From Ailanthus altissimus (taxonomy: Eukaryota > Streptophyta > Magnoliopsida > Sapindales > Simaroubaceae), in contig OX327683.1 of the NCBI GenBank assembly GCA_946807835.1, forward strand, positions 37,197,001 to 37,261,000: a DNA stretch of 64,000 bases, in the 5' to 3' direction. The notes beneath the pieces are model-generated. The model had not been told where the DNA came from. It saw nothing but the letters and a program-made list of their open reading frames with translations, and searched no databases. Each line of letters begins with the position of its first letter. Position 1 is the first letter of the stretch. Shown in pieces: positions 20,430 through 53,509 of this stretch. Made by a program: the position numbers and the translations under genes.

Positions 20430-21380
20430 ATTTACAAATGATGTGAACGATTCCGGTTTGTGATCCGAATAAATATGTATGTTTCTTTGCAGGCGGTCAT
20501 AATTGGTGTTTTAAATTCTTGCTGATTGGAAATAAGAATTTTGCATTGTTGTGCAAGAGAATAGCAACTAACTATTATTGTTATTATTTTTGTAGGCACT
20601 AGTTAAACCTCTATGAGATAATAATCAAGGGAAAAATTATTGTAGGCACTAGTGTGGCGGCTATTGGCCCGAAATGTGTTAAAATGTAAAAAAGGATTTT
20701 TTTTATAATGATTTTATCTTATAATAATAGGTGTTTTTAGATTTTGAAACCTATAAGATTTAAAATTCAACAACATATTCTCTTGTATAACTAAACTTTA
20801 ACCCAACAATTTTTTAACTTCAACAACTTGGCTCTCTCATTCTTTAAATTTTTTATAGGCCTCGGAGAATTTTATTTAAATTAAGATGAAAAACACTTAG
20901 TCAAAGGAATTAATGTAATAAGCCTTACCCTTATAATATCTAATATAAGAGAGACCCAAATCCCAATAAGAAGGTAACATAATACAAAGATAAAGGAAAA
21001 GAAAAAAAAACTTATAGGAGGGAAAGCCATTGAAATCTCGAGAAAGAAAGCTTTGATCATTGAAGGAGCAGTGTTCCACCAAGTAAAAGAATTGAACTGC
21101 AAACTAAATTTACTATTGCATCTGCAGCTAGCCCCATTTCTCTCTCCGAAGAAATGAGAAAAGTGAATGCTCATATATATTACTTTAAAAAAAAAAAAAG
21201 AATGTTCATATATAGCTTTCATAAAAAACAAGAAATATTTTCAAATAATTTTTGGGTACTACAAATTATCTAACATGCAATAAAGGGCTTGATATATGAA
21301 AATGTATGTGTAATGAGGGCTAATTTTTATACACAAACAAAATTTTAAAATTAAAAAAATTGATCATTTAATCAAAGTTT
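20430..21380. other. intergenic, no gene seen
   Basis: AT-rich sequence with poly-A/T tracts. Open frames on the minus strand near 20.9-21.2 kb are Phe/Ser/Ile-rich, low complexity and not credible. Confidence 0.55.
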
Positions 21381-21439
21381 TGTCGTTAGAGAAATTTAAC
21401 TGTTACGAAGAAATACATGGGTTAATCATCAAATAACAT

Positions 21440-21686
21440 ATAGTAATCTGTAAGTTTGGGAATACACCATTATCGCCGTTTGAACACGAATTCGTATGAG
21501 ATTGACCGTACGATCACGATCTCTTAAAAATTCAAATTAATTAATCAAAGCCTCAATTTATTGTAATAAGTCGTCCAATCAAAAGGAAATTGGAGTAACG
21601 ACAAGAATTTAACAGTGGATGCTTGCGATTCACGCACACTGCACTCTCGTCGCTTTTCTTATTATATATTCAAACTCGGACCTTTT
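21440..21686 (+). promoter_or_regulatory. duplicated DUF1639 promoter region (truncated copy)
   Basis: The sequence parallels the region upstream of the intact gene at 23637, with shared stretches such as TTTATTGTAATAAGT, AATTTAACAGTGGA and ATGCTTGCGATTCACG. The G-box CACGTG of the intact copy is CACGCA here. The matching 5' leader resumes at 22153 after a 461-bp insertion. Confidence 0.65.
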
Positions 21687-22147
21687 TGTTAAAATTACAA
21701 CACCAAGTTAAATTAATTACAATACTAAGCTCAATATTAAGTATAAATATTTACAAGCTCAATTCTTGAAATTTCTAAATTATTTAAGATATTTTAAAGT
21801 TAATAATTAAAGATATAAATATTATAAACTTGTGTGGTTAATAAATTTTTATATTATTTTATTTGTGTAGTTTTGATTTGTTGTAACTAAATATAAATAT
21901 CTCCTTCCTCATTTAGTTTTGCAAGCAAACAAGCAAGCAAGTTAAGAATAAATAGTTGATTAAGTATTTGATCAATTGTTGAGAGTTTAGTGTGTTAGAG
22001 AGTTAAGCAAATAATAAGTTCAACAAAAAGTGTGTGAGTGTTGTGTTGTAAGTAAGAAAGAGTGAGAATTTTTAAAATTTGTATTGTAAATTTTAAATTT
22101 ATTGTATTAATAAAAATATTCCATTTGTCATCTATTATTCTCTACAC
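21687..22147. mobile_element. solo LTR between promoter and hairpin locus
   Basis: This 461-bp segment is missing from the homologous leader of the gene at 23637. It begins TGTTAAAATTACAACACC, ends ATTCTCTACA and is bordered by CTTTT (21682-21686) and CTTCT (22148-22152), a 5-bp target duplication with one later change. It is AT-rich, with GTGTGAGTGTTGTGTTG near the end, as in plant Copia LTRs. It would separate the old promoter from the DUF1639 fragment, or supply its own promoter. Confidence 0.7.
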
Positions 22148-22224
22148 TTCTTAGGTTTCCTTTTTTCTCATAAAATCCATCTAAATTTGATCAAAGCAAA
22201 TTCTTCTTCCAAGAAAAATTCCCA

Positions 22225-22436
22225 ATGGCATCAACTCTTTCATTGCCATCATAATCTTTGAACAACTTCTCGTTGGTTGCTGCAGTTGCAATGGGGGCCA
22301 ACTCCCTCCGGCTCCATCCAAGCCAACACCCACCTCTATCGCCAACTCTCCGACATCATTCTCAAGTCATCTCAAAATGACTTGTCGTCAATTCTCACCT
22401 CTCCCAACGACAAACTTTCGACGGGTTCACACACAA
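22225..22436 (+). pseudogene. truncated DUF1639 copy ending in a hairpin
   Basis: The sequence aligns with codons 1 to about 65 of the gene at 23637 (ATG at 22225, MASTLSLPS). A stop TAA at 22252 replaces the Gln codon at position 10, and indels follow near 22275-22290. Similarity to the sense strand runs to about 22430, then the sequence turns back on itself. The C-terminal DUF1639 core is absent. Downstream, 22512-22568 matches in the same sense the region upstream of the minus-strand gene at 48673, so the locus is a rearranged chimera. It cannot encode the family protein. Confidence 0.85.
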
Positions 22437-22512
22437 AAAATTGTGTGTGAACTCGTCGAAAGTTTGTCGTTGAGAGAGGTGGGAATTGACGACAAGTCAT
22501 TTTGAGATGACT
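22365..22512. repeat. near-perfect 72-bp inverted repeat (hairpin) of DUF1639 sequence
   Basis: The left arm 22365-22436 pairs base by base with the right arm 22441-22512 around a 4-nt AAAA loop. I checked all 72 positions: 69 Watson-Crick pairs, two G:U wobbles (22395/22482 and 22424/22453) and one C/A mismatch (22404/22473), with no indels. The left arm is the sense strand of DUF1639 codons about 45-65; the right arm is antisense to them. Plus-strand RNA would fold into a long dsRNA stem of the kind cut by plant Dicer-like enzymes. Whether it is transcribed is unknown. Confidence 0.97.
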
Positions 22513-23512
22513 ACAATAAATTCTATTGTTTTCAAAACAAAGAAAGGGAGAAGACTTGCACATGAGCATAATATCTGAGTTGTATTCGATTTTGTTATAA
22601 AGTTAGGGATCATTAACACCCTGCATTGATTAATTAATATCTGAGTTATATTTGATTTTGTTGTCTTTTGGGTACATGAGTCTTATATTAAATTGTGATT
22701 CTGCAAAGTAATTAATGTATATATGGCAATTTCAATTTTATCCTTTGCATTTGCCTTGTCTTTGCACCATCTTCCATCATTCATTAGAACAAGCAACTAA
22801 CGAGAAACTAAATGCTTTTGAAAATTTGGTGATAGTTACTATTAGTGAGATTCAAGACTGATAAATTTGATTATGAGAGAAAAGAATCACTGAATTCACT
22901 AGAGAAGAAATACACGTTGGTTGATTTCCGTGGCAGTTGTTTGTCTAACTTTTAAATTTGGTCCTTCAATTTGCTTAGAAACTAATCTAGACAGAGGTGG
23001 AATGTAACCATATTCGTATTCATATTCATCTCCATTAAGAGTTTGACATGTAACCATGCTTTGCTTAATTTGCTACAAACCAAACAACTGCTAGTTGTGG
23101 TTTTTGCTAGCATGTCATTGAAATGCTGCTTGCAACATTTAATTTTTGTTTTCAAACACTTAAATTAGTTGAAATTTTCATAGCGAGTGTAAATTATCTG
23201 ATCAGATATTGTATGTGCAATAAGGATTTGTTTTTTTTTTATATACATAAAACATCCTTTTTTTATTCCCAAAAAAAATATATTTAATCGAAGTTTTATC
23301 CTTAGAATACAGAGGATCATACAACACGTGCACCTCAGCGGCTCAGCTCGCATTCGTTCGAGATCAGCCATGCGATTATGATCTCTTAAAAAGTCAAAAG
23401 TCTAAGTCTCGGTTTATTGTAATAAGTTGATCAATCGAAAGGAAAGTACCTACGGATCCCAGAAGAGAAACAGAGTTGAGAATTTAACAGTGGACTGTGG
23501 ATGCTTGCGATT

Positions 23513-23550
23513 CACGTGCACGCTCACTCTGATTGTTGCTCTTATAAAGG
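23513..23550 (+). promoter_or_regulatory. DUF1639 gene promoter: G-box and TATA box
   Basis: CACGTG at 23513-23518 inside GATTCACGTGCACGCTCACT, then CTTATAAAGG at 23541-23550, about 90 bp before the ATG at 23637. Both sit at the same spacing in the inverted copy (47006-47011 and 46975-46982). The G-box is a likely binding site for bZIP or bHLH factors. Confidence 0.7.
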
Positions 23551-23636
23551 AACGGGGACTCGCTTAGGTTTCTTTTCTCATAAAAGCTATCTGAATTTGA
23601 TCGAAGCAATTTATTCTTGAGAGAGAAAATTTCCCA

Positions 23637-24389
23637 ATGGCATCCACTCTTTCATTGCCATCACAATCTTTAAACAACTTCTCGTCGCCGCAGTTGAAAT
23701 GGGGGGCCACTCCCTCCGGCACGGTCCAAGCCCACCACCCACCTCTACCGCCAATCTCCGACATAATTCTCAAGTCATCTCAAAATGTCTTGTCGTCCGT
23801 TCCCACCTCTCCCAATGACATAGTTTCAACGGGGTCTCATTATCATCCTGCCGTTGAGTCTTTGGAGAAAAAATCAACGGCATCAGATGGTAGACGTCCC
23901 AGAATCGTGATAAAGTTTCGTTCGCAGAGCAAGAACAAGACTGATGACGCGGTTGCAAATGTAACTGAGAAAACCCTAGTCTCAGCGAACGGTGAGGAAT
24001 CAACAAGAGACCAGATTTCGGAGAATAAATCAACGGCACTCAAATATAGAGTAAAGGAGTCGTCAAAGTTAATGGAGGGCCAAACCCTAGTTGCAACAGA
24101 TAGTGATGGAGGCTCACCACCGGTTCCAAACGAGTCGACTCAGTTAGGGTTTGTTTCGAAAGAAAAAGAGAATAAAAAGAATAAGCGATTATTTTCGACC
24201 TTTTCGGTTTCACTTAATAGAGACCAGATTGAAGCCGATTTAGTAGCAATTGGTGGGCCAAAGAGGATCAAGAGAGCCAAGAGGAGACCGAAGAATGTTC
24301 AAAAACAGCTTGATAGTTTATTCCCAGGTCTGCGTCTGAAGTATATTACACCTGATCATTATAAAGTTCACGATCATCATAAGACTTGA
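23637..24389 (+). CDS. DUF1639 family protein (intronless copy A)
   Basis: A 250-aa open frame without introns. The N-terminus has the family motif LNNFSSPQLKW at about 12-22. The middle is Ser/Lys/Glu-rich and of low complexity (KKSTASDGRRPRIVIKFRSQ). The C-terminus has the DUF1639 core: FSVSLNRDQIEADLVAIGGP, then a basic run KRIKRAKRRPKNVQKQLD, then SLFPGLRLKYITPDHYKV. The function of DUF1639 is unknown; the basic patch could act as a nuclear signal. Canonical members have an acidic-basic TGxRPPRRPKKR segment and WNLRPRK; the latter is missing here. It differs from the copy at 46132-46884 at about 13 of 250 residues, so both look recently duplicated and maintained. The MIRNA-like hairpin 1.1 kb upstream carries a matching fragment. 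Confidence 0.85.
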   Translation: MASTLSLPSQSLNNFSSPQLKWGATPSGTVQAHHPPLPPISDIILKSSQNVLSSVPTSPNDIVSTGSHYHPAVESLEKKSTASDGRRPRIVIKFRSQSKNKTDDAVANVTEKTLVSANGEESTRDQISENKSTALKYRVKESSKLMEGQTLVATDSDGGSPPVPNESTQLGFVSKEKENKKNKRLFSTFSVSLNRDQIEADLVAIGGPKRIKRAKRRPKNVQKQLDSLFPGLRLKYITPDHYKVHDHHKT

Positions 24390-26545
24390 TATACATTCAT
24401 TTTCTTTACTTCTTCTATTTTTTATATCAATTCAAATTGTGCCACTGAGGTGTTGATTTTCTTGTAATCTAATCGAAAATTTTATTGTATTTCAAAATAT
24501 TATTGATGTGGTTTGTTTATTTTATTTGTTCTGCATCTGTGGCTATTTTCTCATTCGTACATAAGATCTGGTAGTGTTAGGAGAACTTTCCTATTAGTCG
24601 GAATAATGATCATATCCATATCATCACGGTAGCTCAGAGATAAACTAGCTCATGCTCTCTAAATCTCAGGAGAGTCCAGTAAATATGTGTGCTCACTTAA
24701 TTTAATTTTATTTCTACCTGGAAATGAGAAACACCACTAGATCTACAAGCTCGGATTATATATACTGGATCTGTTTTTATTCATTATTAATTGCAGGTTT
24801 ATTTACATCTTGATATGTAACCATGCTTTTTTTTTTTTTGTTGCTGAATTTGCTACAAACAAATACCTGCTATAATTTGTTATTTTCCAGTAGCAATGTT
24901 AATTACTGTGATATTATGTTGCTTTTATATAGATTGCAACACTGTTTTTGTTTTCAAATACTTAAATTAGTCCAAATTTTCATAATATTTTTTTGAGGTG
25001 AACCTCAATGCAATAAGAGAAATTTTATAATTAAATAAAAATTAAAACAACACTTGATTAGGGGCCGGGATGTAATGAGTGTTACTTGTCAAAAAAAAAA
25101 AAGCGTGAAAATAAGAAATTTTGAGAGAGAAAAACATGCTAAAATAGATGCCAATGTAAATAAGAAGTTATTATATATGAAAAGATATAACTAGAAAATG
25201 CTATTAATTAGCATTCTTTGAGAGGAACCTTTGATTCTCTCCATTATAATATAGACATAATTCCGCCAACATGTCCAACAATCAGGTTATTTTCTCAAAA
25301 AGTGAGTATGCCTCCAATTTATTAGGCCAACAACAACAATTAAGCCATGTATTCTGAAAGCTCCCAAAAAAAAGTGATAGAAGAAATTACGTAAAAAAAA
25401 AAAACAAATAAATAAATAAATAACATTTATTGAATCAATCTCGAGCAATAAGTTACTCTAACCTTTCTCCACAGCATCCCTTATAACAACAATGGCGGTT
25501 AAAGCCTCAGCAAAATAAGCTGTATTGACACCAATAGCCATTGGCATACCAAAATGCTAGTTGTTAGCTAGATTAACGAAATAATTATTCTTAGGACTAA
25601 AAGACCAAGAAGCAATTTCTAATGATAAAGTTCAAATACTCTAGTAAACGAATAATTGACTGTGGAATTTAACACTATTGTCCATATAGTAATCAACTTG
25701 ATAAGTTGATCATCGTGTAAGTATTAACGGATAATTCAAGCTGAAATGCACTCACGAATGACAAAAGTTGATAAATCATATTTATATATCCATGAAAATG
25801 TTCCTATGGTCTGCCCTATAAGCCAACAGCTTGTAAACAAGTTGTAATGAATATAGATAAACGAAGAATTTTTTTTTCAACACCTAGATGAAGTTTTAAT
25901 AAGTTACAAATGATTAAATGGGTTTATGTTATGAACATCAAAAATAGGATTTAGCTATGTAATAAACGCCCTAATGTTATGTATTGAAAATTCTAACACA
26001 AAATTTGAAATTTTATTTTCAAAACGTGTAACATAAAATTTCGTGTAACATAAAATTTGAAAGATTTAACATAAAACTCGAAACACAATTTGCACAAAGA
26101 CCAAATCATCAAGAATCATATGACAATGTCCACCCTCAATATCCTCATGACATCAACATATATATCCACCTAAAATAAATGTTAATTGTGATTTTATTCT
26201 AAATGCATTTTACATTATTATACCACATCTATTCTCAGATATTGGAGGAAACCAATTGCATACATATAAGATTTTATCCAACTACAAATTGAAATGAAGA
26301 AAAAACTATTAGAATAAATATACGTTTTAAGGCATTGAATTAGACAGAAAAAAAGTTTTACAAACCTAATTCATAGCTTATTTTTCAAATTTAATTGTTT
26401 GCAAAGATAATTAGACGAAAACATAATTATTTTAGAAATATAATTGTTTTGCATAAATGACTTGATAATTTGTTTTCAAGTTTATGTTTAAAATATATAC
26501 CTACTAATGATATATTATAGATATATTATAGAGTTCGTAAAAATA

Positions 26546-26728
26546 TTATCTTTCACATTCTCGGTTTTGCTTACGAAGGATTAAATTAAAGCTGATTTAA
26601 TGGAAATGAGTGAGTCAAAGCGGATAAAAAAAAAGCAAGTAGAGACCAAAAACAACTCCATAGTTTATTTCCAAGTCTATTTTAAGTATGTTGTACGTGA
26701 TGATTATAAAGTTGGTGATTATAAGACT
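26546..26728 (+). pseudogene. decayed DUF1639 C-terminal relic (plus strand)
   Basis: The sequence follows the 3' end of the gene at 23637 through many substitutions: TTTCACATTCTCGGTTTTGC matches the FSTFSVSL codons, AATTAAAGCTGATTTAATGG matches QIEADLVA, and GATGATTATAAAGTTGGTGA matches DHYKVHD. Frameshifts and stops abolish coding. Its 3' flank (26740-26930) also matches the flank of the intact gene, then breaks off at a 4.4-kb insertion and resumes near 31315. Confidence 0.75.
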
Positions 26729-26934
26729 TACAAGATAAATGTATTTTGTTGGTTTCTTTTATGTTTTTTTATTAGTTTAATTTGTGCTATAGAGATGTTG
26801 AATTATTGCTCTCCGGTTTTGCTGTATTCAAAATTTCCATTGAATATTGTTTTTTTTTTTTTCTTCTCAATCATGGTTAATTTCCTCATTCACATATAAT
26901 CTCTATTAATTACTATTATCACGGTTTTAAATTT

Positions 26935-27686
26935 TTTCTTTTTAATTTCAATAAGGGTAACTATATACGACCATCTATTATTTTGAACATTATCCACTTA
27001 CCCATGATATTTTATATTACTAAGAATTTTTGTTAAATTATTCATTAATTCTTATTTTCTTTTTATTAATTTACCATTATAATACTATTTGTTCATAAAT
27101 TATTAATATAATTTTTTAAAATAATAATATTAAAATAATTAAAACTATAACATATTAATATTATGATGGAATGATGAATATTTAATTTTTTAATTTTTTT
27201 TTATTTTGCATTTTAAATTTTAGTCATTAATTGATATTTTAAAATACATTAATATTTAATACTTTTGAAAAAGAATAAATATATTATGATTTTATTATTT
27301 TTTAGTAATTTTGTTTGAAAAATAATAAAAAACTATAATGTGTTTATTTTTTAATGATAATTAAATATTAATGCATGAAGAATATTAAATATTAATAAAT
27401 ATATAAAATATAAAACAATAAAAATAAAAATAAAATAACTAAAATATTATCCTTCTATTATAACATAAATATGTTATGGTTTTTATTATTTTAGTATTAT
27501 TTTTAAAAAAATTATATTAATAATTTATAAAAAATAATAATGTAAGAGTAAATTAATAAAAAAATAATAAAAATTAATAGATAATGTAACAATAAGATTT
27601 TTTTTGTATAATATGAAATATCACAAGAGTAAGTGAGTAGTGCTTAAAATATGAGGGAGTAATTGGTCGTAACCCTTTAAATAATA

Positions 27687-27735
<49 letters not shown>

Positions 27736-28059
27736 CATACACATATAATTAATTTAGTGAGCTTCATTATCACATGTCACTATCTAACAAATTCACAATT
27801 TTTTTATAATTTTTGTATAATTTACAATGCGTTATAGAATACTGTTATATGTCAACAAACTCACAACTGCGTATTCCACTATATATATAGACACACACGC
27901 TGGTTGAGAGATACACAACTTCACTTCATGCTTAATGCTTTCCACATCTTATGAAAGTCCATTAGATACACAAGTTCATGCATTTTCACATCTCATGAAA
28001 GTCCATTAGATACACAAGTTCATGCATGCATGCATGCTTGCTTTTTAAATGTTTGAATT
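26935..28059. other. AT-rich inserted DNA before the Copia element
   Basis: Extremely AT-rich DNA with many short repeats, a (TA)n run at 27690-27733, and a local duplication of TTCATGCATTTTCACATCT / CATGAAAGTCCATTAGATAC motifs at 27930-28025. No coding sequence. Together with the Copia element it interrupts the flank of the DUF1639 relic. Confidence 0.6.
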
Positions 28060-28904
28060 TGTTAGAAAATTGGTGATTCAACAATTTTGGTTGGATAAGA
28101 ATTGAGATGAATACTAAAGTAGAGAGTCACAAGAAGTCTAGAACGTGTGGGACATGTATGGAGAAGTCTAGGACATGTGGAACACGAAGAAAAAAGTGAA
28201 ACGAGATTCGAAGACGCGAAGGAAGTGAAGAAAACGAGGGAGGTGCGTATAGGGCTGAGCGCCACGGTGCCCACGACAGCAACCCAGCGCTGCTGGGAGC
28301 GATTTTGGCCAGCGTCGCGGCTCCCAGAGACGAGTGCCGTAGCGCTAGACCCGTCAGAAGTCTGTTTTTCTTTGGGATTTCTAGTCTTAAAAAGTTTTGG
28401 ACTTCCAAAACAAGTGGACTCTTACTCCAGTAAGGAATAAAGTTGGTAGGCACAAAATACACCCTATATAAACACTTGTAAACCATTTAGTTGAGATTAA
28501 GCATTAAGAGAGACTCTAAGAGAGGGGAAGAACTGGGTAGACACTAAGTGCTTGTGTGCGTTAGGGTGAAACCGTCGTTTGGGTGATCATTGTTCATGGT
28601 AGAGTAAGAGTTCACTAAACATTAGGTCCTTTTGAGGGTTCTTCAAATTGGATTTTCCTTGTAATATCTCTAGGGAGTTAATAAGAGAGGTTAGGATCCT
28701 TGGATCTACCATGGACGTAGGCAATTGGCCGAACCACGTAAGATTGTGTTGTGCTCTTTTATTTTCTGCTTTGGATTCTTGCTATTTTGCTTGATTAACA
28801 GGTTATTCCATTATACAATGAGGTTAGGATTTTAGGTTGAACTTGAGGTTTTTCATTTCAACATAACCTCGAAAGGGAAAAAGGCGTTTCCTCCCTCAAT
28901 AAAC

Positions 28905-29439: not shown

Positions 29440-30436
29440 AACAATGCACGAGGGAACTTCATTGAGAACTCACATTGACGAGTTCAACAAGATCATCATA
29501 AGTCTTGAGCAATTGAGCATCAAGACCGATGATGAAGACAAGGCCATTATCTTGTTAAGTTCGTTGCCAAAGAGCTATGAGAGCTTTGTGGATACGCTGT
29601 TGTATGGGAAAGAGTCTTTAATGATGAATGACATCAAGGCATCATTGAACTCAAAAAAATTGACAAAGAGATCTGAGTTCGAAAGTGGAGCAACATTGCT
29701 TGCACAATGAAGAAAGAGCAACCAATTAAAGAGGAGATCCAATAAGTGTTTCCTTTGTAATAAGGAATGACACTTTGTGAAGGATTTTCCGAAATCAAAA
29801 GGCCAAGGAGGGTGAGCTGTAATCAGTACTGAAGAAGATACCAAAGTTGTAGACACATTGGTAGCCTCAAAAAGAAAGTACGCTGACAAATGGATACTAG
29901 ATTCGGAGTGCAAAGTCCATATGTGCCCCGACAGATTGATGTTTACCAATTATAAAGTCAAAAGAGGTAAAGCTCTAATAGGAAATGACATGACTTGTGA
30001 GATCATTGGAGTTGGTGACATAATGCTGAGGATACAAGGTGGAGAAACTAGGGACTTATATGGTGTAAGGCATGTTCCTAAAGTGAGGAGAAACTTGATA
30101 TCCCTAGGTAAGCTCGATGAGGAAGAGTATTTGGTTACAGCGAAAAAAAGAAAACTAAAGGTAGAGAAAGGACCTATAAGGTTTGAGGGTGAGAAGCACA
30201 ATGAGGGGCTTTATGTGCTTACTGGAATGGCCATGAGTGGCCCAACACGGGGTGTTAGGATAATGCAGACCACTAGACGACATCCAAACCGTGCTCACCG
30301 AAGTGATGAGGGTCAGAAAGGAGTACAACGCATCCATACCCTATGCAAGATGCACGAATGCCTTTGGAGACCGAAGTCACTAGCCCGAAAAAAGTTAAGT
30401 CTTGGTGGAGACTTAATTGGACTCAACTTTAGGTGA
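29440..30436 (+). pseudogene. Copia GAG and protease remnant
   Basis: Frames in order: HQLTMHEGTSLRTHIDEFNK and the following UBN2 GAG part to 29709; a CCHC knuckle near 29748-29800 that reads CFLCNKE-stop-HFVKDFPK, so the last Cys is Phe and a stop interrupts it; then the retropepsin region from 29870, where DSG is changed to DSE (ILDSECKVHMCP), and VRHVPKVRRNLISLGKLDEE. After about 30235 the sequence jumps to unrelated 3' DNA. It is inactive as a polyprotein. Confidence 0.85.
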
Positions 30437-31314
30437 TAGAGTATTGGTGTGGATTGGATCTCGAAGCCTTCTTATTTGGAAGATTTTGAATCAATGAAGG
30501 ATTTGTTGAAAAATTGGTGATTCAACAATCTTAGTTGGACAAGAATTGAGATAAATACCAAAGTAGAGAGTCACAAGAAGTTTAGAATGTGTGGGACACG
30601 TATGGAGAAGTTTAGGACGTGTGAGACATGAAGAGGGAAGCGAAATGAGACTTGAAGATGCGAAGGAAGTAAAGAAAACGCGAGAGGTGCGTATAGGGTT
30701 GAGCGCCACGGCGCCCAGAACAACAACCCAGCGCCGCAGCACTAGGCACGATTTTGGCCAACGCCGCAGCGCCAGACGCGTCAGAAGTCCATTTTTCTTC
30801 AGGATTTCTAGTTTTAGATTCTAAAACAAGTGGACTCTTACTCCAACAAGCAATAGAATTGGTAGGCACGAAGTACACCCTATATAAACACTTGTAAACC
30901 ATTTAGCTGAGATTAAGCATTAAGAAAGATTTTAAGAGAGGAGAAGAACTGGGTAGACACTAAGTGCTTGTGTGTGCTAGGGTGGAACCGTCGTTTGGGT
31001 AATCATTGTTCGTGGTAGAGCAAATGTTTACTAAACATTAGGTCCTTTTGAGGGTTCTTCAAATTGAGTTTTCCTTGTAATATCTCTAGAGAGTTAATAA
31101 AAGAGATTAGGATCCTTGGATCCACCGTAGACATAGACAATTAACCGAATTACGTAAGATTATATTGTATTCTTTTGTTTTCTAATTTGAATTCTTATTA
31201 TTTTATTTGATTAATAAGTTATTATAAAAAATTTAAAATTTTAAGTTAAACTTAAAGTCCTTTACTTTAATATAATCTCATAAAAAAAAAAAAAACCGTT
31301 TTTCGCCTTCAACA

Positions 31315-39315: not shown

Positions 39316-40047
39316 TCATCTATGATCATGAACTTTATAATCATCAGGTGTGATATACTTCAGACGCAGACCTGGAAATAAACAATCGAGCTGTTTTTGA
39401 ATCTTCTTGGCTCTCTTGATCTTCCTTGGCCCACCCATTGCTACTAAATCGGCTTCAATCTGGTCTCTATTAAGTGAAACCGAGAAGGTCGAAAATAACC
39501 GCTTATTCTTTTTATCCTCCTTTTCTTTCGGAACAAACCCTAACTGAGTCGACTCCTTTTGAACCGAGGAGCTTATATTAGCATCTGTTGCAACTAGGGT
39601 TTGTCCCTCTATTAACTTTGACGGGTCTTTGACTCTATTCTTCAATGCCATTGATTTATTCTCCGAAATCTGGTCTCTCGCTGATTCTTCACCGTTTGAC
39701 GAGACTAGGGTTTTCTCAGCTATATTTGCAAACGCGTCATTCGTCTTGTTCTTGCGAAGCAAACGGAACTTTAGCACGATTCTGGGACGTCTATCGTACG
39801 ATGCGGTTGATTTTTTCTCCGAGGTCTCAATTGAAAGCTGATAATGAGACCCGATCGAAACTCTATCGTTGAGAGAGGTGGAAACGGAGGACAACCCGTT
39901 TTGAGATGAATTGAGAATGATATCGGAGAGTTGGCGGTAGAGGTGGGTGCTGGGTTGGATGGTGCCGGAGGGAGTGGCCTCCCATTTCAGCTGCGGCGAC
40001 GAGAAGTTGTTTAAAGATTGTGATGGCAATGAAACAGTTGATGCCAT
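39316..40047 (-). CDS. DUF1639 family protein (intronless copy B)
   Basis: 243 aa from MASTVSLPSQ; the frame stays open 45 codons upstream, but the family start and the TATA box near 40137-40145 point to the Met at 40047. It has LNNFSSPQLKWEATPSGT at the N-terminus, a Ser/Lys-rich middle, and the core FSVSLNRDQIEADLVAMGGP, RKIKRAKKIQKQLD, CLFPGLRLKYITPDDYKV. Compared with copies A and C it lacks a few residues in the basic run (KKIQKQLD in place of KRRPKNVQKQLD), a small in-frame deletion. The upstream ACGTG core remains but the full CACGTG palindrome is lost (GGACGTGAA). Confidence 0.83.
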   Translation of the reverse strand: MASTVSLPSQSLNNFSSPQLKWEATPSGTIQPSTHLYRQLSDIILNSSQNGLSSVSTSLNDRVSIGSHYQLSIETSEKKSTASYDRRPRIVLKFRLLRKNKTNDAFANIAEKTLVSSNGEESARDQISENKSMALKNRVKDPSKLIEGQTLVATDANISSSVQKESTQLGFVPKEKEDKKNKRLFSTFSVSLNRDQIEADLVAMGGPRKIKRAKKIQKQLDCLFPGLRLKYITPDDYKVHDHR

Positions 40048-46131: not shown

Positions 46132-46884
46132 TCAAGTCTTATGATGATCATGAACTTTATAATGATCAGGTGTAATATACTTCAGACGCAGACCTGGAAA
46201 TAAACTATCAAGCTGTTTTTGAACATTCTTCGGTCTCCTCTTGGCTCTCTTGATCCTCTTTGGCCCACCAATTGCTACTAAATCGGCTTCAATCTGGTCT
46301 CTATTAAGTGAAACCGAAAAGGTCGAAAATAATCGCTTTTTCTTTTTGTCCTCCTTTTCTTTCGGAACAAACCCTAACCGAGTCGACTCGTTTGCAACCG
46401 GTGGTGAGCCTCCTTTACCATCTGTTGCAACTAGGGTTTGGCGCTCCATTAACTTTGACAGCTCCTTTACTCTATATTTGAATGCCGTTGATTTATTCTC
46501 CGAAATCTGGTCTCTTGTTGATTCCTCACCGTTCGCTGAGACTAGGGTTTTCTCACCTACATTTGCAACCGCGTCATCGGTCTTGTTCTTGCTCTGCGAA
46601 CGAAACTTTATCACGATTCTGGGACGTCTACCATCTAACGCCGTTGATTTTTTCTCCAAAGACTCAACGGCAGGATGATAATGAGATCCCGTTGAAACTA
46701 TGTCATTGGGAGAGGTGGGAACGGACGACAAGACGTTTTGAGATGACTTGAGAATGATGTCGGAGATTGGCGGTAGAGGTGGGTGGTGGGCTTGGACGGT
46801 GCCGGAGGGAGTAGCCCCCCATTTCAACTGCGGCGACGAGAAGTTGTTTAAAGATTGTGATGGCAATGAAAGAGTTGTTGCCAT
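46132..46884 (-). CDS. DUF1639 family protein (intronless copy C)
   Basis: 250 aa, MATTLSLPSQSLNNFSSPQL at the start and the full core FSVSLNRDQIEADLVAIGGP, KRIKRAKRRPKNVQKQLD, SLFPGLRLKYITPDHYKV at the end. It is about 95% identical in protein to copy A at 23637, lying in the opposite orientation within the inverted duplication. The TATA (46975-46982) and G-box (47006-47011) are conserved in sequence and spacing. Differences from copy A are scattered (for example Asp-Ser to Gly-Lys near residue 155) and there is no frameshift, so both are likely functional. As in the other intronless copies, the WNLRPRK motif is absent. Confidence 0.85.
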   Translation of the reverse strand: MATTLSLPSQSLNNFSSPQLKWGATPSGTVQAHHPPLPPISDIILKSSQNVLSSVPTSPNDIVSTGSHYHPAVESLEKKSTALDGRRPRIVIKFRSQSKNKTDDAVANVGEKTLVSANGEESTRDQISENKSTAFKYRVKELSKLMERQTLVATDGKGGSPPVANESTRLGFVPKEKEDKKKKRLFSTFSVSLNRDQIEADLVAIGGPKRIKRAKRRPKNVQKQLDSLFPGLRLKYITPDHYKVHDHHKT

Positions 46885-48055: not shown

Positions 48056-48673
48056 TTAATGATCACGAACTTTATAAACATTATGTGTTATGTACTTCAG
48101 ACGCAAACCGGGAAACAAATCATCGAGCTGTCTCTGCACATTCCTCGGTCTCTTCTTGGCCCTTCTGGTCCGCTTTGACCCACCCATGGCTAACAAATCA
48201 GCTTCAATCTTCTCTCTTGTAAGAGCAACGGAGAACGTAGAGAATGCTCGCTTGTTCTTCATCAACTGATTCAACTCGGGCCCAGCCGATTCCCCTCCAT
48301 CTCCATTTTTGGCAACTAGGGTTTCATTCGCTGCCTCAGAAGGTTTGTCTTGTGCTCTCTTGTTGCTCTGCCTACATGACTTTATTAACAAGTTTTTGGC
48401 CTTAACGTCCGATGCCGTTGTTTTTTTCTCCAAACTCTCAACAACTAGGGTTTGATCCACTGCATTTACGACCACATTGCCAATCTCATCGATGCTTGCA
48501 ACTGCATTCCTCAATTTTGACAAGATGGTAGGCCTACTACCGTCTGATGACGTTGATTTAGGCCTACGGTGATCGCCGTCGGTGCTGACGTGGTAGGCGG
48601 CGCTCCATTTCTGCTGCGGTGGCGAGAAGTTGCATAGAGGATGAGATTGCGAAGAGACAGTTGATGATGCCAT
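48056..48673 (-). CDS. DUF1639 family protein (intronless copy D, short)
   Basis: 205 aa, more divergent than A-C. N-terminus MASSTVSSQSHPLCNFSPPQ, then KW; the middle is shorter; the core is FSVALTREKIEADLLAMGGS, KRTRRAKKRPRNVQRQLD, DLFPGLRLKYITHNVYKV. MASST at the start resembles the intron-bearing gene E more than MASTL of A-C. It lies 1.2 kb upstream of copy C in the same orientation. Its 3' flank (from 48055 down) is the start of the right duplication arm. The region upstream of its ATG (48827-48887) matches the DNA just after the hairpin at 22512-22568. Confidence 0.82.
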   Translation of the reverse strand: MASSTVSSQSHPLCNFSPPQQKWSAAYHVSTDGDHRRPKSTSSDGSRPTILSKLRNAVASIDEIGNVVVNAVDQTLVVESLEKKTTASDVKAKNLLIKSCRQSNKRAQDKPSEAANETLVAKNGDGGESAGPELNQLMKNKRAFSTFSVALTREKIEADLLAMGGSKRTRRAKKRPRNVQRQLDDLFPGLRLKYITHNVYKVRDH

Positions 48674-52505: not shown

Positions 52506-53422
52506 TCAAACCTTTGTAGAACCATCGTTAACCCTGTACGACTCGGGCGTTATCGAAGCCAGCCACAAACCCGGAAAAACATACTGCAAAAACCACCAAA
52601 AACTAACACACAGTCAGCACAACTGTAAAACCTACACCCAATTGTATCTACAAAAGCAAAATTAAGAAGAAAAAATGGTCTCACATCAAGTTGCTTCTGC
52701 ACATTACGAGCTCTCTTCTTGGGCCTTCTAGAAGGCTTGGAACCAGTCATAGTAAAAAAGTCATCTTCAATCTCTTCCTTCGAGAGCGAGATCGAGAATT
52801 TCTGCTTTTTCTCCTTCTCTTTCTCTTTTTTGTCAGCGACGTTTGCCTGATCTTTTATCTCCTGAGACGCTGCTCCTCCGATCTTCAGTGCACCTCCATT
52901 CACATTGTTGTTGTTGTTGTTGAGGTGATTAGCCTTAGTCACCAGTTTCCTCGGCCGCAAATTCCACGTCTTCGGCCCTGATTCTTCAGCGTCCTCAGCA
53001 ACAACGGAGTTATGATCCCCTGCATCCACAACCTCATCAGCAACTTTACAGTTCTTATTCGTCCGGATTCGAATAAAAATCTTCTTCGATCTACTCCTGT
53101 CAGACGAAACCGCCGGCTTCTTCTCCGAATTGTCAGCCACGTCAACAGCCGTCGACTGCTTCTTCTTAGCCACCGACATCTCCGTTTTCACAGCTTCAAC
53201 AAGCACCACCGGATTCTGACTCCGACTCTGATTTTGATTCTGCCTCCGGCACTTATCGGAATCAGAATCGGCGGCGTCGTTCTGAGAAGGAGGAGGCGAT
53301 TTGTGAGAGGAATCGGAGAGTTTGCGGAAACGGTTACTGTTGGTTTGGTTCATGGCCCATTTCAAGTCAGGCAAAGAGAAGTTGTGAAGAGGCTGAGACT
53401 TTGCTGCTGTTGAAGAAGCCAT
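52506..53422 (-). CDS. DUF1639 family protein (intron-bearing, canonical form E)
   Basis: Exons 52685-53422 and 52506-52583 join in phase 0 at QKQLD|YVFPGLWLASITPESYRV to give 271 aa. The start is MASSTAAKSQPLHNFSLPDL, then KW, the usual family N-terminus. The middle holds KKIFIRIRTNKNC, the motif TWNLRPRKLVTKA, and an Asn run encoded by a GTT repeat (52908-52922). The core is FSISLSKEEIEDDFFTMTGS, KPSRRPKKRARNVQKQLD. It fits known plant DUF1639 proteins better than the other copies do (TGS, PGLWL, WNLRPRK). The last codons could instead be spliced (AAG|GTTTGA to an acceptor at 52399), which changes only the final residue or two. It is probably the source type of the cluster. Confidence 0.88.
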
Positions 53423-53509
53423 TTTCTCTAGACGCTGCGTTGCTGCTGCTGCTTCGTTCTTCTTCTTCTTCTCAACAAATGAATGAAACACCATTGATGA
53501 GAACAAACA

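Follow-up and report, generated by a model that had tools for sequence, protein, structure and literature searches.

Does the long, nearly perfect hairpin among the DUF1639 genes of Ailanthus altissima act on its neighbours as a young small-RNA gene, as a first-pass annotation of this DNA had proposed, or is it the scar of a rearrangement in a dead gene copy? We analysed the hairpin within the whole 64-kb stretch of DNA around it (the window), which contains five DUF1639 genes, termed A to E:

Gene A, 23637-24389, forward strand: DUF1639
Gene B, 39316-40047, reverse strand: DUF1639
Gene C, 46132-46884, reverse strand: DUF1639
Gene D, 48056-48673, reverse strand: DUF1639
Gene E, 52550-53494, reverse strand: DUF1639

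PF07797, which Pfam describes as a domain of unknown function, was found in all five of the proteins tested. The siblings of the hairpin named in the first-pass annotation, at 23637, 39316 and 46132 (A, B and C), do encode DUF1639 proteins and keep the region of the arms over 67, 55 and 67 nucleotides (nt), respectively. A search with the gene A protein returned five relatives among 501 candidates, the best-scoring of which, from Melia azedarach, was 44% identical. Upstream of gene A lies a further DUF1639 copy, P, which is broken and consists of a promoter relic, an insert, and a 5′ UTR with a coding start (22147-22431) that is 84-85% like A, B and C by BLAST:

21490..21683, forward strand: P promoter relic, with TATTATATA at about 21660-21668; 70-79% identical to the upstream regions of C (47162-46979), A (23349-23445) and B (40187-40124)
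22147..22364, forward strand: pseudogene P 5′ UTR and DUF1639 gene start, with the ATG at 22225; 84-85% to A, B and C

The coding start of P is interrupted by an in-frame TAA at codon 10 (22252-22254) and carries a 4-bp insertion relative to A, B and C. No 3′ half was seen adjoining P; a DUF1639 C-terminal relic at 26545-26937 was considered for this role and set aside, as it is only 66-68% identical to A, B and C, compared with 84-85% for the 5′ half of P. Substitutions between P and A, B and C number 38/274, 40/275 and 35/277, as against 12/277 between A and C. A and C share a state that differs from B at 29 sites; P has the state of A and C in 16 of these cases, that of B in 10 and neither in 3. 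Among 16 substitutions private to P, five are C to T and two are G to A, too few for a claim of methylation-driven decay.

The hairpin sits inside this dead copy and has three parts:

22365..22436, forward strand: left (sense) arm, continuous with P, with homology to the paralogues up to about 22431
22437..22440, forward strand: AAAA loop, the centre of TTCACACACAA-AAAA-TTGTGTGTGAA
22441..22512, forward strand: right (antisense) arm, a reverse copy of the left arm of P itself

Alignment of the arms reproduced exactly the geometry given in the first-pass annotation: 72-nt arms, 96% complementary and without indels, form a 71-pair stem of 69 Watson–Crick and two G:U pairs with one C·A mismatch. 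The three differences between the arms, at 22395 (T against G, G:U), 22404 (C against A, mismatch) and 22424 (G against T, G:U), are all transitions. The minimum free energy of 22340-22540 is -130 kcal/mol, as compared with a mean of -41.5 (s.d. 4.24) for shuffled sequences, none of which was as good (0/200; z -20.9), and the stem is also present in the minimum-free-energy structure of a hypothetical 636-nt transcript (21925-22560).

An ungapped scan of the window (exact 12-mer seeds; arms ≥25 nt, identity ≥85%, loop ≤300 nt) returned this hairpin as the sole inverted repeat of its class, and genes A, B, C, D and E are thus without one. In a 200-kb sample of the same genome (20 stretches of 10 kb), there was no inverted repeat with arms of 60 nt or more, and none of the 15 repeats with arms of at least 20 nt reached 30% G+C. 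In a search of the genome (939,062,666 bases in 37 contigs, with match counts being lower bounds), the left arm plus loop was found in at least four places, namely the two arms, gene A and gene C; gene B was not among them. The same DUF1639 cluster also holds an AT-rich, imperfect, MITE-like palindrome of about 700 bp (26967-27670, with ends ACGACCA...TGGTCGT), which is gapped and so escapes the ungapped scan. It is a larger potential hairpin (-193.5 kcal/mol; z -18.6 with 20 shuffles), and its 23 matches in the 200-kb sample all depend on switching off the low-complexity filter.

The origin of the arms can be read from the paralogues, which match them over the following stretches:

23773..23839, forward strand: gene A matching stretch, 84-85% over 67 nt
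39855..39909, reverse strand: gene B matching stretch, 82% over 55 nt; includes the best-scoring predicted site
46682..46748, reverse strand: gene C matching stretch, 82-84% over 67 nt

The left arm continues P and stays collinear with A, B and C as far as about 22431, and the right arm is identical to the left at 69 of 72 positions, as against 82-84% identity to A, B and C over 55-67 nt. We counted this pattern in favour of a template switch within P. The arms are thus DUF1639 coding sequence, sense then antisense, as the first-pass annotation had it. An inserted fold-back element such as a MITE was rejected: collinearity of the left arm with the gene and the paralogues extends past the outer edge of the arm, which is therefore not foreign.

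Long-read libraries can contain fold-back artefacts, and a chimaera from the library or assembly could in principle yield such a structure. Judged against A, B and C, however, the derived state lies on the left arm at 22395 and on the right arm at 22424, which makes a read artefact unlikely; at 22404 the paralogues leave the polarity undecided, with one state in B and the right arm and the other in A, C and the left arm. The right arm also continues into sequence that has a homologue elsewhere in the window, and the published A. altissima assembly used 45-fold HiFi reads with 10X polishing (PMC10472066). We regard an artefact as highly improbable.

The distal end of the hairpin is a rearrangement junction, a feature that, together with its position in a dead gene copy, adds to the first reading of the locus. 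The 5′ flank of gene D (48889-48825, minus strand) is homologous to the sequence from 22507 onwards, and the right arm ends at 22512, so that the two boundaries coincide to within 6 nt. We also counted this coincidence in favour of a template switch:

22510..22512, forward strand: distal junction; ACT common to the arm end and the D 5′ flank, a possible microhomology
22513..22571, forward strand: homologue of the D 5′ flank (48883-48825, minus strand); 59 nt aligned, 3 substitutions

Over a wider comparison, five of six nucleotides agree (ATGACT/ATAACT); a microhomology of either extent (3 nt or 5/6) could be due to chance. Beyond the junction the sequence is inverted-collinear with the D–C region, except that, by comparison with 48825-48077, gene D itself is absent between 22571 and 22595. 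A direct repeat of 28 nt (22569-22596 and 22635-22662) lies at the spot of the missing gene. Elsewhere, a match of 81% between 21279-21436 and 43624-43464 breaks the order in which the inverted duplication otherwise runs.

Our preferred explanation, which we hold to be probable, is that the hairpin is a template-switch fold-back scar in the dead copy P and that any RNA transcribed from it would give rise to mixed small interfering RNAs (siRNAs) acting mostly on the locus itself. During repair or replication of the dying P, the growing strand would have turned back on itself near CACACACAA/TTGTGTGTG and made a reverse copy of some 70 nt of P, after which synthesis would have continued on a homologue of the 5′ flank of gene D, the inverted neighbour, leaving a fold-back whose distal end is the junction. 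Template switching has been proposed as a one-step source of perfect hairpins for human microRNA loci (PMC8794818). Counted against it here is the CACACAAAAAA centre, which the paralogues do not account for.

Divergence between the inverted copies places the event in relative time. Substitutions amount to 3/59 in 22513-22571, 21/147 in 22595-22742, 18/260 in 22743-23003, 32/573 in 23027-23636, 28/753 between genes A and C, 29/514 in 24390-24992, 51/298 in 25206-25525 and 74/574 in 25690-26275. With blocks grouped after inspection, the divergence of the arms (3/72) is below that of the three older blocks pooled (146/1019; Fisher P = 0.012) and similar to that of the three younger A–C noncoding blocks (79/1347; P = 0.79); on the same post hoc grouping, the flank 22513-22571 leans likewise (P = 0.05 against the older blocks and 1.0 against the younger). 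An earlier comparison of the arms with the A–C noncoding sequence (96/1271; P = 0.36) had pooled old and young blocks. Given this pattern, the fold-back probably arose after the first expansion of the cluster. The first-pass description of a young inverted duplication of DUF1639 coding sequence is upheld. Substitutions accumulate in plants at about 7e-9 per site per year, a rate that, if assumed here, would make the arms about 3 million years old, with a wide error (95% interval of arm divergence, 0.9-11.7%) and as a minimum age, because fold-back arms can homogenise each other.

The block beside the junction, 22595-22742, is older than the A–C blocks (P = 0.0007), so the junction and the young duplication need not be a single event. 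The idea that the hairpin and the whole A–C duplication arose together is weakened accordingly: 22595-22742 is 14% diverged, like 25206-26275 (13-17%), whereas 22743-24992 is 4-7% diverged. On these divergences, it seems as likely that part of an older inverted duplication was later converted or re-duplicated as that there was a single event. The A–C tract itself (22743-24992 / 47826-45611), being 4-7% diverged inside an inverted duplication of 13-17%, suggests recent gene conversion or re-duplication between the inverted copies.

Whether the scar could be transcribed depends on its surroundings, in which a 460-bp insert separates the promoter relic of P from the 5′ UTR of P:

21687..22146, forward strand: insert, read as a solo LTR; 460 bp, TGTTAAAA...TCTACA, with TG...CA ends
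21682..21686, forward strand: left flank CTTTT, probable target-site duplication; 4/5 match to the right flank
22147..22151, forward strand: right flank CTTCT, probable target-site duplication; 4/5 match to the left flank
21892..21899, forward strand: TATAAATA, candidate LTR promoter element upstream of the hairpin; kept as AAGTATAAATATCCCC in the related copy
22515..22520, forward strand: AATAAA, candidate poly(A) signal just 3′ of the stem

Removal of the insert and one 5-bp flank gives GGACCTTCTTAGG, which aligns with GGACCTGCTTAGG at the same place in gene B; the empty site is clearest in B and looser in A and C. A relative of the insert (on contig C3 near 2.0 Mb) is 85% identical over 432 columns, with the same last base and the same TGTTAAAATTACAACA start. 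It was the one same-ended relative in the 200 kb sampled, where disabling the low-complexity filter added six AT-rich matches of 42-50 nt. The relative has no clear target-site duplication, and no full-length element of the family was seen in the 200 kb sampled. From its ends, the probable target-site duplication, the empty site and the relative, we read the insert as a solo LTR, which would have landed close to where transcription of P once began, either before or after the fold-back. The motif TATAAATA additionally occurs at 21742 and 21814, and both copies of the insert keep TATAAATAT about 250 bp before the LTR end; a start driven by the LTR in the window would lie about 440 bp upstream of the stem. 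The order of LTR TATA motif, stem and AATAAA has the anatomy of a possible primary transcript, and a transcript across the stem would be a plausible hairpin-siRNA precursor.

These surroundings also bear on the possibility that the locus is an inert palindrome, methylated or unexpressed, that was never a source of small RNAs. P is a dead copy in which the insert separates the promoter from the 5′ UTR; the three transitions in the arms fit deamination, although at n = 3 they are below a testable number; and hairpin transgenes are reported to be methylated both at the inverted repeat and at the promoter (PMC9263138). Against inertness, the LTR keeps a TATA motif that is common to its relative and oriented towards the stem. 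We consider complete inertness rather unlikely. Under the fold-back scar that we prefer, any reading by the LTR or by leftover activity of the P promoter would yield an RNA that folds into the 71-pair stem, which DCL2/3/4-type dicers would cut into mixed 21-24-nt siRNAs.

The hairpin, at 148 nt, is within the 300 nt allowed for a MIRNA precursor, and any 21-nt duplex drawn from it stays within the permitted five mismatches (PMC12594335), because the whole stem has one mismatch and two G:U pairs. The miRScore criteria also call for at least ten miRNA/miRNA* reads, 75% library precision and 2-nt 3′ overhangs (PMC12594335). The repeat has the structure of a hairpin-siRNA locus (a long, near-perfect inverted repeat in one potential transcript), a kind further defined by heterogeneous 21-24-nt siRNAs from its stem; its second arm is the reverse copy of the adjacent first, as in a template switch; and it is absent from the paralogues A, B and C, which served as the comparison set. 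Hairpins of such origin are already known as a kind. In Arabidopsis, most of the gene-derived fold-back loci found earlier yield complex siRNAs, siRNA-like output is described as coming first, and DCL1 acts poorly on perfect double-stranded RNA (Fahlgren et al. 2007, PMC1790633). A near-perfect stem of 72 nt would be expected to act as a source of siRNAs and not as a DCL1-processed miRNA precursor (PMC1790633). No Rfam 15 family matched at gathering score in the 64 kb, a result with which a new family would be compatible, and, among the titles and abstract openings examined on DUF1639 and on A. altissima small RNA or miRNA, none describes the hairpin locus. A DUF1639 gene is a predicted target of miR398b in almond (PMC4890778); that is a different miRNA and has no bearing on the hairpin.

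A functional young MIRNA or hairpin-siRNA locus would be transcribed, diced and silence B, A or C in trans. The strong stem and the flanking candidate promoter and poly(A) signal favour such a locus, as does the precedent of soybean GmIRCHS, in which an inverted repeat of a pseudogene has captured a promoter and is proposed to silence CHS genes (PMC13051633). We scored predicted sites with a mismatch as 1 and a G:U pair as 0.5, doubled at positions 2-13, with a limit of 4. This follows the usual plant scoring scheme. Right-arm 21-mers came within the limit in 25/52 cases against A (48%), 19/52 against B (37%) and 18/52 against C (35%); with positions 9-11 also clean, 16, 14 and 9 of the 52 remained. 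The best predicted site pairs the frame 22465-22485, which has a 5′ U, with 39884-39864 of gene B, through two G:U pairs only (score 1.5). None of 5,200 shuffled-arm comparisons reached the limit, nor did any of the 52 right-arm 21-mers against D (48056) or E (52550), or of the 52 left-arm 21-mers against any of the five DUF1639 genes.

However, antisense 21-mers of P outside the hairpin reached the same limit in 84/195 cases against A (43%), 138/195 against B (71%) and 109/195 against C (56%), so that the rate inside the hairpin is slightly higher for A and clearly lower for B and C. As P sequence outside the hairpin passes comparably, the pass rates reflect family resemblance and are not a sign of selection. 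Antisense 21-mers of the hairpin fit plant targeting limits for A, B and C, but those of P do the same beyond the hairpin. The reported match of 25 nt to gene A with one mismatch was confirmed. In each of the five 21-nt frames that have this mismatch and no other, it falls within small-RNA positions 6-10. Mismatches at these positions should weaken targeting. Two of the three arm differences stay paired as G:U, which random transitions do about half of the time, and the present hairpin sequence looks neutral. Inverted-repeat transgenes moreover tend to silence themselves (PMC9263138), and the lack of an Rfam family also counts against function. The proposed action on the neighbouring genes is not supported, because the targeting scores are at about the level of plain homology, and we consider a functional locus quite improbable. 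We hold as more doubtful still a proto-silencing gene caught at birth, in which one template-switch event and an LTR promoter would have produced siRNAs that already dampen B, and perhaps A and C; if true, the hairpin would be an LTR-driven, GmIRCHS-like regulator of the DUF1639 cluster. Under the preferred fold-back scar, siRNAs would act mainly on their own locus and weakly, if at all, on B, A and C. Drift to death is described as perhaps the commonest fate of young fold-back loci (PMC1790633).

Known systems share parts of this anatomy. Like the template-switch RNA hairpins of Monttinen and Loytynoja (2022, PMC8794818), the Ailanthus hairpin is a one-step reverse-complement copy of adjacent sequence with few later differences; their microRNA cases were set on mammalian phylogenies, whereas ours is compared with paralogues only, and ours differs in that it is joined distally to another paralogous segment. 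Inverted duplications of coding sequence give rise to hairpin-siRNA and MIRNA loci in plants, and in the Arabidopsis MIR161 and MIR163 class both arms resemble the gene family beyond the 21-nt site, as they do here; those loci have sequenced small RNAs (PMC1790633), and the Ailanthus hairpin differs from them in its nearly perfect stem. The pseudogene-related miRNA genes of Zhang et al. (2011, PMC3237417) likewise combine a pseudogene with inverted duplication, although they are annotated rice and Arabidopsis miRNAs. GmIRCHS is the nearest natural precedent that we encountered for a working version: it, too, is a pseudogene inverted repeat with a promoter of other origin and intact family members close by, but it has 1,087-bp arms, a 78-bp spacer and the GmJ1 promoter, with double-stranded RNA and a phenotype reported, as against 72-nt arms and a candidate LTR promoter here (PMC13051633).

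As the function of DUF1639 is unassigned in Pfam, regulation of these genes, if true, would be a lead. To our knowledge, accounts of MIRNA birth by inverted duplication seldom capture the underlying event in the DNA. Here the parent family, the dead donor, the fold-back and the exit junction lie in one window, so the step from repair error to hairpin is open to direct examination, and the locus could tell whether such scars make siRNAs before selection acts.

Two further features of the window are recorded. A direct repeat pair (28057-28870 and 30501-31279, 81%) flanks an open reading frame at 29921-30436, which we take to be Copia-like and, with its flanking repeats, possibly a decayed LTR retrotransposon. 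A SWIM-type protein has as its best-scoring named relatives, among the best 120 of 296 matches, proteins of Melia azedarach (67%) and Mangifera indica (57%), both Sapindales; within the same 120, three other proteins score between these two and one scores above them.
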